From Nevskia sp. (GTDB lineage Bacteria > Pseudomonadota > Gammaproteobacteria > Nevskiales > Nevskiaceae): a DNA stretch of 64,000 nt. The stretch covers positions 1-64,000 of the forward strand of contig JARLJS010000287.1 of the NCBI GenBank assembly GCA_031291075.1, read 5' to 3'. The notes beneath the pieces were generated by a model. It ran no database searches, was not told the origin of the DNA, and saw nothing but the letters and a program-made list of their open reading frames with translations. Position numbers and translations under genes: made by a program. This document shows positions 44,896 through 50,046 of this stretch, one piece after another (the stretch's first letter is position 1; every line of letters starts with the position of its first letter).

Positions 44896-46044
44896 ATGCA
44901 GTTCAAGCGCAAGCTCGGCGCAGCCGCAGTATTGGCCGCGTCCTGGTATTCGGGTTCCGCACAGGCCGTCACCACCATTACCGACGTCAACGTCGACACG
45001 GTCAGCGGCGTCGTCTACATCGACGGCACCGATCTGATCCTGAGCGGTTATACACCCTACGTCGTGCTGGAAGGGGTGAGCCTGACCATCAACCGCGGCG
45101 CTTCCAGCAACACGCACGTGCAGGCGGCGATCCCGAACACCCTGCCGCTCGCCGCTGGTGTCGGCTACCAGCTGTACGCGTCGCCCGATCGTCTGCCAAA
45201 TACCGCGAGCAACGGTTACGGCGCGCCGACCGACCAGGCCTATACCACGGTCTATGTTGGAACCGGGGCAACCGGTGCCACCGGGTCGACCGGGGCCACC
45301 GGCAGCGCCGGCCTCACAGGTGCCACCGGGCATACCGGTGCCACGGGAGCTACCGGAGCCACCGGAGCAGGTGCGACTGGGGCCACCGGCGCCCAAGGCC
45401 CTACGGGTGCACCGGGTGCCACCGGGGCAACAGGTTCCCAAGGCGCGACGGGTGCGACCGGTGTCCCCGGCCCGACCGGCGCCCAGGGCCCCACAGGGCC
45501 CACAGGTCCCCAGGGTGCGGCGGGGACAACCGGCGCGCAGGGTTCGACCGGTGTACAGGGTCCGACAGGTGCCCAGGGCGCTACCGGAGCAACGGGTTCC
45601 CAGGGTGCTACGGGGGCCACCGGTGCCCAGGGCTCAACGGGTCCGACCGGCCCGGCGGGCGCCACGGGCGCGACCGGCGTCGGTGCAACCGGGTTACCCG
45701 GTGCCACGGGGGCCACCGGCGCGACTGGCGCGAGCGGTCCGCAAGGTTCCACCGGTGCCACGGGTGCGACCGGCAACACAGGTCCGGCCGGCGCCACCGG
45801 TTCGACCAACTTGTCGTCCGCGAGTCTCAGCACCTGCAGCAGCGCTGCGACCTGCTCCTGTAGCAGCGGCCAGCTGATCAGCGGCGGAGCTTACTGCGAC
45901 AGCCCCACAAGCTACTCCGGCTCGCTCCTGATCAACTCCTATCCCTCCAGCACGACCACCTGGACGGCGACGTGCACGAACCCCAATAACGGTCAGCCGG
46001 TCAACGCCAACACTATCTATATCATCTGTGCGCCGAGCCAGTAG
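44896..46044 (+). CDS. Secreted collagen-like protein 1
   Basis: A 382-residue protein. The signal peptide [16 protein letters not shown]...GSAQA is cut near residue 24. A roughly 90-residue beta domain of IPT/TIG-like character follows ([19 protein letters not shown]...[14 protein letters not shown]). Uninterrupted Gly-X-Y repeats, dominated by GAT, GPT and GAQ, fill about residues 117-303. A C-terminal globular domain of about 75 residues has several Cys ([20 protein letters not shown]). The repeats should form a collagen triple helix exposed outside the cell. ATG 44896 follows GGGGGG. The next gene is a close paralogue. Confidence 0.92.
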
Positions 46045-46240
46045 CTGCGTTCGTCCGCACGGACGCGGATGAGCAGCGGTTTCTGGCAGGTGGCGGGTGT
46101 GAACGTGCGTAGCGTCCCCGACCCCGGGCAGCGGGCGGGGGCGTGACATGCGGGTAGCGTAACGGGCTGGTCCTGAACCATCTGACCGGCGGTCGGCTGC
46201 ACCCTCAATATAGGTATAGCCAAATCACCGTCCGCTCCGG

Positions 46241-46246
46241 TATAAA
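46241..46246 (+). promoter_or_regulatory. Candidate -10 TATAAA upstream of collagen-like gene 2
   Basis: The counterpart of 44833-44838 in the 270-bp gap between the two collagen-like genes (GGTATAAA, then AGGAAAA). It probably drives the operon 46315-50046. No gene is visible in the gap. Confidence 0.45.
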
Positions 46247-46314
46247 ACGACCGTCCAGGAAAACTTAAAGCTGCACTTCGCCGCCCTCCGGGGCCGGCTC
46301 TCAGGGGATAAATA

Positions 46315-47364
46315 ATGCGTTTCAAGCGCAAGCTCGGCGCGGCGGCGGTGCTCGCCGCGTCGTGGTATTCGGGTTCCGCCCAGGCTGTCACGACCATCAG
46401 CGACGTCAACGTCGACACCGTCAACGGCATTATCTACATCGACGGCACCGATCTCGTCCTGACCGGCTATACGCCCTACGTCGTGCTGGAGGGGGTGAGC
46501 CTGACCATCAACCGCGGCGCTTCCAGCAACACGCATGTGCAGGCCTCGATCCCGCATACCCTGCAGCTCGCCTTCGGCGTCGGCTACCAGCTCTACGCCT
46601 CTCCCGACCGACTGCCTACCACCACCAGCAACGGCTACGGCGCGTCGACCGATCAGGCCTACACCACCGTATATACAGGGACAGGCGCGACCGGGGCGAC
46701 CGGCGCCACCGGGCCCGTCGGTGCTACCGGCATTGCCGGCGGGACCGGCCCCACCGGCGTTACAGGTCCCACTGGCGCCACAGGTTCCACCGGTGCTACG
46801 GGTGCCACCGGCGCCACCGGCACGGGTGCCACCGGGGTGACGGGGGCAACGGGTGTCACTGGTCCGACCGGCATCACCGGCGCTACCGGTGCGACCGGCG
46901 TTACAGGCGCCACCGGCCCGACGGGCGCCACCGGCAACACGGGAGCTACCGGCGCGTCCGGCCTCAATGGCGCCACCGGTGCGACCGGCAATACCGGCGC
47001 GGCGGGTGCTACCGGCGCTACCGGCGCCACTGGTGCGACCGGCAATACCGGCCCGGCGGGCGCTACCGGCGCCACCGGCACCGGCCTCCAGGGTCCCACC
47101 GGTCCCACCGGCCCGGCGGGTTCCGGCGGCAGCGGCAGCCTCACCTCGGCGGCGGTCACCTCGTGCAGCAGCGCCAGCAGCTGCGCCTGCCCGAGCAACA
47201 CCGTGCTGGTGAGCGGCGGCGCTTCCTGCGCCACCACCAACCAGTACCTGTACCAGTCGTACCCGGTCGACAGCACCCACTGGGGCGCCATGTGTCAGGT
47301 GTTCCAGGACGGCAGCAACGTCAACCCGGCGACCGTCTACGTCTACTGCGCGCCGACCCAGTAG
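46315..47364 (+). CDS. Secreted collagen-like protein 2 (tandem paralogue)
   Basis: A 349-residue protein with the same layout as its upstream neighbour. The signal peptide and N-terminal beta domain are almost identical over about 115 residues (shared block: [20 protein letters not shown]). Gly-X-Y repeats fill about residues 119-280 and a Cys-containing C-terminal domain ends in YVYCAPTQ. The collagen region diverges more in length (about 160 versus 187 residues). It heads an operon with the propeller-like and tail-collar genes (gaps 20, 8, 19, 21 and 7 bp). The two genes probably arose by duplication and could encode subunits of one fibre. Confidence 0.92.
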
Positions 47365-47384
47365 CCGCCGGACGGAACGCCTGC

Positions 47385-48700: not shown

Positions 48701-48719
48701 GCGTATCGAGGCCGCAACC

Positions 48720-49115
48720 ATGTCGGACTTCTACATTTCCGAATTGCGCATCTTTCCTTTCGGTTTCGCTCCCAGGGGTTGGCTGCAGTGCAACGGCCAG
48801 CTCGTGACGATTGCGGAATACGAGCCCTTGTTCGCGCTGCTGGGCACCACCTACGGCGGCGACGGCATCACCACTTTCGCCCTGCCGGACCTGCGGGGGC
48901 GCGTGCCGATCGGCGTGAGCACCACCAATGTCCAGGGCGAGATCGAAGGCGGCGACCAGGCCATCAGCTCGGTCGGCGGTATCACGCCCAAGCGCGGCCT
49001 GACTTCCACCAAGATATCCGGCACCGCCATCCCCGGCGGCAGCACCAACCGCCAACCCGCCCTGACGCTGAACATCTGCATCGCGGTCAGCGGTATATTC
49101 CCCTCCCGCACCTGA
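48720..49115 (+). CDS. Phage tail-collar domain protein 2 (MdpB-like)
   Basis: A 131-residue paralogue with FYISELRIFPFGFAPRGWLQC, GQLVTIAEYEPLFALLGTTYGGDG, FALPDLRGRVPIG and the closing NICIAVSGIFPSRT. The central variable loop differs strongly from copies 1 and 3, as expected if each binds a different target or partner. It follows copy 1 by 19 bases. No signal peptide is visible. Confidence 0.9.
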   Translation: MSDFYISELRIFPFGFAPRGWLQCNGQLVTIAEYEPLFALLGTTYGGDGITTFALPDLRGRVPIGVSTTNVQGEIEGGDQAISSVGGITPKRGLTSTKISGTAIPGGSTNRQPALTLNICIAVSGIFPSRT

Positions 49116-49136
49116 ACCAGAGACGGACGCACAGCC

Positions 49137-49547
49137 ATGGCGACCCCATATGTCGGTGAAATCCGGCTCTTTGCCGGGAATTTCGCGCCCGCCGGCTGGT
49201 TCTTCTGCGACGGGCGCGTGCTGGCGATCTCGGATTACGAAGTGCTGTACACCCTCATCGGCACCACCTACGGCGGCAACGGCAGCAGCACCTTCGCCCT
49301 GCCGGACCTGCGCTCGCGTGTGCCGATCCACCAGGGGCAGGGGCCGGGCCTGAACAACCATGTGCTGGGCGAGCCGGTGGGTGCCGACAGCGGCACCACC
49401 ACGCCGGCGACGGGGTTTACGGTGGAGCGCAATCTCGCGGCGACCGTCACCACGACCGCCGCCGTCGTCACCGGCTCGGGCATCCAGAATCGCCTGGGCC
49501 TGGGCTTCATCATCGCCTACGCAGGTATCTTCCCCTCGCAGGGCTGA
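49137..49547 (+). CDS. Phage tail-collar domain protein 3 (MdpB-like)
   Basis: A 136-residue paralogue with YVGEIRLFAGNFAPAGWFFC, GRVLAISDYEVLYTLIGTTYGGNG, FALPDLRSRVPIHQGQGPG and the closing FIIAYAGIFPSQG. Its middle part resembles copy 1 (GQGPGL) more than copy 2. It is separated from copy 2 by 21 bases and from the GNAT gene by 7. Three consecutive collar genes are a recurrent arrangement in Xanthomonas-like genomes, as far as I recall. Confidence 0.9.
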   Translation: MATPYVGEIRLFAGNFAPAGWFFCDGRVLAISDYEVLYTLIGTTYGGNGSSTFALPDLRSRVPIHQGQGPGLNNHVLGEPVGADSGTTTPATGFTVERNLAATVTTTAAVVTGSGIQNRLGLGFIIAYAGIFPSQG

Positions 49548-49554
49548 GGCCGGC

Positions 49555-50046
49555 GTGGCCGAGCGCCCGCCCGCGCCGCCGGAATTGCACCTCCGGCCCG
49601 CCGCGGAGGGGGACGCGGCGCTATTGCTGGAGATCTTCTGCGCCGCGCGGCGCGAGGAGTTCGCGCCGCTGGGGTGGACGCCGGAGCAGTTGCGGCCGTT
49701 GCTGCAACAGCAGTTCGCCGCCCAGGCGCGGCACTATGCTACGCAATTCCCGGATCTCGATCGCCGCATCGTCCGCAGCGGCGATGCCGACGCCGGCTAC
49801 CTCTATGTGCACCGCGACGATGCCGCCATCCGGCTGGTCGATATCGCGCTGCTGCCGCGGTTCCGCGGCGGCGGCATCGGCGGCCGGCTGGTCGGGCAAT
49901 TGCAAGCGGAGGCGCACCACAGCGGCAGGGCGGTGCGGCTCACCGTGGCCGTGAGCAACGTCGCGGCACAGCGGCTGTACCGGCGCCTGGGGTTCGTCCA
50001 GACGGCGGATGACGGCGCCTACCTGGCCATGGAGTGGAAGGCCTGA
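49555..50046 (+). CDS. GNAT family N-acetyltransferase
   Basis: A 163-residue acetyltransferase. The acetyl-CoA motif is LLPRFRGGGIGGRLVGQLQ, preceded by RLVDIALL, and the C-terminal VSNVAAQRLYRRLGFVQT strand-helix is typical. GTG 49555 with GAGG upstream starts 7 bases after the third tail-collar gene, so it is the last gene of that operon. It could acetylate one of the operon products or a small molecule. The target is unknown. Confidence 0.85.
   Translation: MAERPPAPPELHLRPAAEGDAALLLEIFCAARREEFAPLGWTPEQLRPLLQQQFAAQARHYATQFPDLDRRIVRSGDADAGYLYVHRDDAAIRLVDIALLPRFRGGGIGGRLVGQLQAEAHHSGRAVRLTVAVSNVAAQRLYRRLGFVQTADDGAYLAMEWKA

Follow-up and report, generated by a model that had tools for sequence, protein, structure and literature searches.

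A collagen-type variant of a widespread collar-triplet locus in Nevskia and its possible part in a surface fibre

The window analysed here is a 64,000-nt stretch of Nevskia sp. DNA (GCA_031291075.1, contig JARLJS010000287.1, positions 1 to 64,000). At 44896-50046 it carries seven intact open reading frames (ORFs), all on the plus strand, encoding two collagen-like proteins, an NHL-like protein, three proteins with the Collar domain of phage tail fibres and a GNAT acetyltransferase. The product of col1 (44896..46044, 382 residues) consists of a Sec-type leader, an N-terminal domain (N-domain, residues ~25-120), a Gly-X-Y stalk and a Cys-containing C-terminal head. Its paralogue col2 (46315..47364, 349 residues) is followed by the gene for an NHL-like beta-propeller protein with the Tat leader SRRGF (47385..48287, 300 residues), by collar genes 1 (48296..48700, 134 residues), 2 (48720..49115, 131 residues) and 3 (49137..49547, 136 residues), whose products are all short and devoid of a leader, and by the GNAT gene (49555..50046, 163 residues), which has a GTG start. 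The intergenic gaps measure 270, 20, 8, 19, 21 and 7 bp in this order; col2 opens a tight block that runs to the GNAT gene, and col1 is set apart from it by the 270-bp gap. The gene order and the short gaps (7-21 bp) downstream of col2, as given by a first-pass annotation of this DNA, agree with the ORFs and Pfam matches. A consensus scan yielded neither a sigma-70-type promoter nor an intrinsic terminator, and the Rfam and tRNA scans gave no match.

The succession of collagen, NHL, collar1, collar2, collar3 and GNAT genes is repeated in a congener (genome G012), where the flanks differ from those in the window: beyond the G012 block lie a DUF6916 gene (Pfam E 1e-22) and genes resembling, by eye, those of sugar metabolism. 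The collars of the two genomes are reciprocal best matches position by position, and the C-terminal head of col2 matches the G012 collagen protein (phmmer 1.2e-22). The G012 counterpart of the NHL-like protein, its only close relative, is 51% identical and keeps the twin arginines (SRRGF in one, SRRGL in the other). Because the gene order recurs beside different neighbours, the operon is a real unit conserved in the genus, though a rare one. The combination of collagen, NHL and three collar genes is hence not unique to the window genome. Across the genomes scanned, the NHL gene occurs in 2 of 58 from the family, 2 of 85 from the order and 3 of 369 from the class, and the two class-level matches outside the window's own genome are weak (33-35% identity). 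Collars of any kind occur in 7 of the 85 order genomes.

The three collar proteins match the Collar family PF07484 with E-values of 2.9e-27, 4.9e-27 and 9.6e-28, and share 40-43% identity with one another. The likeness to the short tail fibre gp12 of phage T4 lies in this domain, which aligns between collar3 and the gp12 structure 1ocy over ~70 residues (E 1.2e-6); unlike gp12, the window has separate small proteins, three paralogues, no shaft in the chain and no HxH motif. At phage tail tips, HxH probably binds metal in the trimer. A scan of contigs with collar3 returned 52 loci from several phyla, 29 of which are exact tandem triplets. Together with ten annotated plasmid regions (read from 74 records with a match), G012, two loci from the order, eight from the class and the window itself, these make up a first sample of 51 triplets, ten of which belong to Xanthomonas, so that the counts are not independent. 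A second sample was drawn from 398 genomes of the phylum, 69 of which had a match; it comprises 30 of a larger number of collar places, plus one of G451, with 27 tandem triplets and four places occupied by fused or paired collars. Scored with the loose pattern H.H (a narrower pattern gave fewer), HxH is present in all three collars of each of the 49 other triplets of the first sample and of the 27 of the second, and in none of the collars of the window or G012. The long tail fibre structure 8kec aligns across the HxH region of ordinary collars. The collars lacking the motif are also the shortest: 131-136 residues in the window and 131-139 with G012 included, against 164-202 in the remainder of the first sample and up to 222 in the second. 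We considered the disappearance of HxH from three lineages in concert as proof of a heterotrimer and dropped the argument, because a tree with all six short collars in one clade is not rejected by an approximately unbiased (AU) test (p 0.676) and has the better likelihood.

Tandem collar triplets appear to be a locus type in their own right, with recurrent companions. In the first sample, a GNAT gene lies near 41 of the 51 triplets and a DUF6916 gene, detected with a profile built on five members, near 35. A gene of at least 900 residues lies within 2.5 kb in 32 of 51 cases, and in 16 of 27 in the second sample. Five of six large neighbours examined carry Ig, cadherin, autotransporter, SLH or tandem-95 repeats; their contents are Big_9 with cadherin, Calx-beta and He_PIG with an autotransporter barrel, SLH with Ig and Listeria-Bacteroides repeats, Ig, and tandem-95. 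The sixth (L026), compared with NCBIfam only, had no match. Long genes are more frequent near the triplets than far from them, at 32 of 222 against 1 of 297 genes in the first sample, where the far count is biased low by loci that end early, and at 18 of 126 against 5 of 181 in the second. The per-base density of genes of at least 600 residues (0.23, 0.48, 0.50, 0.39 and 0.37 from near to far) has no clear peak at the triplet, because very long genes reach outward. Loci of this type on plasmids of Aminobacter, Azospirillum, Deinococcus, Paenibacillus and Ruegeria are annotated as "tail fiber protein", and unannotated contigs of Xanthomonas and Stenotrophomonas have the same three tandem collars and GNAT. 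The window resembles them in the trio and the adjoining GNAT, with all three PF07484 genes in tandem on one strand; it differs from them in that they often have a giant protein and DUF6916, and collars of 164-202 residues with HxH. Among these widespread collar-triplet loci it is a variant of the collagen type whose collars lack HxH.

Two further settings of collar genes were seen. Next to the triplets of L156 (10760-11191, above the Pfam cut-off) and L157 (10406-10834, just below it) are proteins of the DUF6916 type that bear a Tat-like leader with twin arginines. In L062, L112 and L114 the collars lie among PqqD, 2-oxoglutarate-Fe (2OG-Fe) oxygenase, asparagine-synthetase, lasso B2 or sulfotransferase-like genes, a setting resembling that of ribosomally synthesized and post-translationally modified peptides; it was read from the annotation in L062, from a Pfam match to PqqD in L112, and otherwise by eye.

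Collagen genes, sought by a Gly-X-Y scan, accompany 3 of the 51 triplets (the window, G012 and L007); the second sample, with 31 loci of which 27 are triplets, has none. Triplet loci of the collagen type are therefore in the minority. In L007 a CBM96-collagen gene ends 31 bp upstream of the trio. In L027, a CBM5/12-collagen gene precedes a lone collar; on the opposite strand lies a CBM96-collagen-collar fusion. The records of L007 and L027 are titled Acidobacteria and Bryobacteraceae. Proteins joining collagen and collar in one chain were found in the window's own genome (contig C198), in L027 and in L164, the last with a leader read by eye. The link between collagen and collar proposed in the first-pass annotation therefore recurs, as adjacency in G012, L007 and L027 and as fusion in these three chains.

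Collars group largely by their place in the triplet, in paralogue lineages that are old. On a tree of 96 rows from 32 of 41 triplets, position labels require 21 changes, against 45.5 in shuffles, and some clades of one position span phyla, such as one of 13 position-3 rows with support 85/92. Elsewhere the three collars share a single chain: in L163 (8667-10082, minus strand) with a leader ahead of them and PEP-CTERM, in L053 (7839-9539) with a leader and Big_9/cadherin and Listeria-Bacteroides repeats, in L056 (5222-7276, an Acetobacter metagenome-assembled genome) followed by a Hint_2 domain, and in L204 as a 507-residue frame with three collar matches. The chain of L053 joins the trio to the kind of repeat protein that adjoins other trios. 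In L163 and L164 a C-terminal collar segment stands ahead of the first N-terminal one; this permuted order, read by eye, suggests that a collar may pack its C-terminal strand on the next one. Leaders are present on all three collars of L111 (genome G022) and L213, and apparently, by eye, on those of Kosakonia L068. Since the lineages track position, three collars share one chain elsewhere and some triplets bear leaders, the sequences favour one extracytoplasmic module of three parts over three alternative tips.

The acetyltransferase of the window (GNAT, Pfam E 9e-11) appears to belong with collars of the leaderless kind. A GNAT gene lies beside 63 of 75 leaderless triplets (41 of 49 and 22 of 26 in the two samples, summed by hand under slightly different distance rules) and beside none of six leader-bearing sets (0 of 4 and 0 of 2). 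The latter are L111, whose sequence ends 0.9 kb past the trio, L068, L163, L053, L213 and L214, their leaders having been called by eye or by a simple hydrophobicity rule; L068 was called by eye where the script was undecided, and L213 and L214 are partly undecided. For the first sample the contrast, which was noticed before testing, gives a Fisher value of 0.0017 that ignores kinship. Of 153 triplet collars, 115 have S, A, T or G directly behind the initial Met, and 11 had no Met in range. Because GNAT tracks leaderless triplets and a small residue follows Met, N-terminal acetylation of the leaderless collars by GNAT is a reasonable guess. A fusion of GNAT with DUF6916 is encoded at 11488-12282 of L040 (minus strand), with both parts above the Pfam cut-off. 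In Acaryochloris marina MBIC11017 the genes AM1_3690 to AM1_3686, namely three tail collar genes, a hypothetical gene and an acetyltransferase, change by log2 3.2 to 4.0 between light regimes, and the orthologues of four of them in strain MU13 by log2 2.6 to 3.4, according to the excerpted part of PMC11633204.

Both collagen-like proteins of the window match the Pfam Collagen domain (E 1.7e-26 for col1 and 1.6e-18 for col2) and contain 59 and 46 Gly-X-Y triplets, respectively, in runs of at least three. The longest run in the window reaches 34 triplets, while 20 mononucleotide shuffles gave no run above 5. Their N-domains are 88% identical. The description of two tandem collagen-like secreted proteins in the first-pass annotation stands as regards the Collagen domains and the Sec-type leaders read by eye, with the amendment that col1 lies off the tight block. 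The N-domain has 11 copies in the genome, each in a protein with a leader, likewise read by eye, and a Gly-X-Y stalk, and the heads vary. The nine further paralogues (loci L118-L123 and L059) lie on contigs C237, C222, C59, C95, C177 (two), C226 (two) and C198 of the same genome (G000). The head is BclA_C in the C237 protein (E 1e-29), BclB-type in both C177 proteins (TIGR03721, above cut-off), and a collar domain in the C198 protein, in one chain with the leader and the same stalk. The C222, C59 and C95 heads match no family, none was seen in the two C226 proteins, and those of col1 and col2 are of the Cys type. Together they resemble a family of modular, secreted stalks on which heads can be swapped. 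The arrangement of N-domain, Gly-X-Y stalk and C-terminal head is that of BclA, BclB, Scl and Lcl, and some of the paralogues carry BclA_C or BclB-type heads, but col1 and col2 differ from these proteins in the Cys-type head and in their linkage to NHL and collar genes. They also score far below the NCBIfam cut-offs for Lcl, SclA and SclB (64-86 bits against 325-500). A profile of the N-domain had no match in the PDB, and the C-terminal head gave chance-level matches there; a resemblance of the N-domain to IPT/TIG domains is a tentative impression. The G012 collagen protein (L006, 2396-3460, minus strand), ended by the contig end, carries two CBM5/12 stretches. The collagen-collar fusion of C198 (L059, 1-14501) lies inside an array of ~7 leader-bearing, amidase-like genes that are similar to one another; Pfam bears out Amidase PF01425 for two of them, and the others were recognised by eye.

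The propeller-like protein has one NHL repeat by Pfam (E 7e-4), at 19.9 bits against the curated cut-off of 20, and matches solved NHL propellers by phmmer, with a whole-sequence E of 3e-24 to 6d69 summed over five stretches. With the twin-arginine leader read by eye, these matches are consistent with its earlier description as a Tat-exported NHL-like protein; the adaptor role proposed for it is a guess. The operon is flanked by genes for an SDR protein, two SnoaL-like proteins, a cupin, a LuxR-type regulator, an EAL response regulator, an esterase-like protein and a MalT-like regulator. Pfam recognised none of these eight flanking proteins, the part of the window that was scanned for phage genes, as a member of a phage or tail family, and the claim that no phage or contractile-tail genes surround the operon holds for the eight neighbours.

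The reading we prefer, though we put its chances at no better than even, is that the operon encodes a secreted, collagen-stalked surface fibre joined to a heterotrimeric collar module of the gp12 type, derived from a phage receptor-binding tip. Collars 1, 2 and 3 would form one pseudo-threefold heterotrimer, which would cap or fasten the collagen triple helix at its C-terminal end, or else bind a glycan. The collagen proteins would leave the cell by their Sec-type leaders and the NHL protein by its twin-arginine leader, and the collars would be exported as well; GNAT would acetylate their small N-terminal residues. The propeller might be a lineage-specific partner in folding or attachment. The window trimer would hold together without the HxH metal, perhaps through closer contact with its collagen partner, and the fibre may serve adhesion. 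The presence of a PF07484 protein in the exoproteome of Ruegeria pomeroyi, recorded in an excerpt of PMC4949626, counts in favour of this reading. A number of observations weigh against it. The window collars have no detectable leader, and their exit from the cell is presumed; the six short collars may descend from one short collar that was triplicated anew, as the AU test permits. The window has no profile match to DUF6916 at any point, and no protein of at least 900 residues within 2.5 kb of the trio, the collagen-like genes occupying its place. The NHL gene and the collagen neighbours are as rare as the counts above indicate, and triplets are not universal, the other loci of the collar3 scan being single ORFs or sets of 2, 4 or 5. 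The 21 position changes exceed the minimum of 2, some clades are weakly supported, and lineages stand at shifted positions in several triplets (for example L007, L008, L026, L033, L034 and L064); the third window collar (WIN_3) groups with position-2 rows, and the second (WIN_2) is unplaced. The MU13 list of PMC11633204, as excerpted, also has genes for phage sheath and baseplate, under different locus tags, that shift in the same direction as the collar genes.

The most serious alternative, which we regard as unlikely, is that the collar trio and GNAT form a self-contained cytosolic or separate cassette, spread horizontally and adjoining collagen genes incidentally. Nearly all triplets being leaderless would fit such a cassette, as would the scarcity of collagen neighbours, the 19 of 51 and 11 of 27 triplets with no long gene within 2.5 kb, and the PqqD-, oxygenase- or asparagine-synthetase-type surroundings of L062, L112 and L114. 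It sits poorly with the leader-bearing versions L163, L053, L111 and L213, with the fusions of collars to collagen and, in L053, to Ig/cadherin repeats, with the collagen-first order of G012 and L007, and with the enrichment of long genes beside triplets in two samples. The same surroundings would also suit collars that serve as substrates or carriers for enzymes modifying peptides or proteins, namely GNAT and, elsewhere, PqqD, 2OG-Fe oxygenases, sulfotransferase-like and lasso-type enzymes; with GNAT as the only such gene in the window, we see a slim chance for this idea.

The first-pass annotation had proposed an adhesin or appendage with a collagen stalk, a propeller adaptor and three alternative tips. 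The non-phage setting, the leaders of the collagen proteins and the recurrent link of collagen to collars bear out part of this, but the alternative tips, each meeting a different receptor on one stalk, are not borne out and seem improbable to us. Divergence among the three collars and the different heads of the paralogous collagen proteins are what alternative tips would predict, whereas the lineages by position, the three-collar chains and the presence of all three genes in one tight block point to joint use. Least probable is a prophage or tailocin remnant. Collar domains are parts of phage tails, a group of three tail collar genes in Caulobacter K31 (CAUL_1097-1099) has been named a phage region (in the portion seen of PMC4221894), and tyrosine recombinase/integrase genes lie at most 7 kb from the triplets of L067 and L068. 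The window collars share their domain with the phage short tail fibre, but their eight neighbours include no phage structural gene; no phage family was recognised by eye in the G012 block, and none of the ten annotated plasmid stretches has phage structural genes besides the collars. The neighbours disfavour such an origin.

Searches of the open PMC literature met no paper that treats collar triplets as a surface system, and returned only fragments. A Collar-domain protein of COG4675 outside phages is RhiB of the Rhizobium rhiABC(D) operon, which differs in being a single collar protein in a rhiI/rhiR quorum-sensing setting; the excerpts of PMC13133039 and PMC6969944 mention no collagen or NHL gene. 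COG4675 proteins are also listed in several treatments of one soil metaproteome (PMC5579227, in excerpt). Outside phages, a gene labelled "tail fiber protein" or "phage tail collar" is easily mistaken for phage debris, as appears to be the case in the excerpted part of PMC4221894. The recurrence of collar trios beside large surface-type proteins in several phyla suggests that a phage part has been reused on the cell surface. More tentatively, and less likely than not, many bacteria may possess a domesticated phage-tip heterotrimer, with a dedicated GNAT serving the leaderless collars, as an extracellular capping, anchoring or receptor module for autotransporter, SLH, cadherin and collagen fibres, of which the Nevskia operon would be a metal-free collagen version with a Tat propeller. 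If true, this would connect the receptor-binding folds of phages with surface structures of bacteria, assign a role to the linked GNAT and DUF6916, and help to explain the COG4675 proteins.

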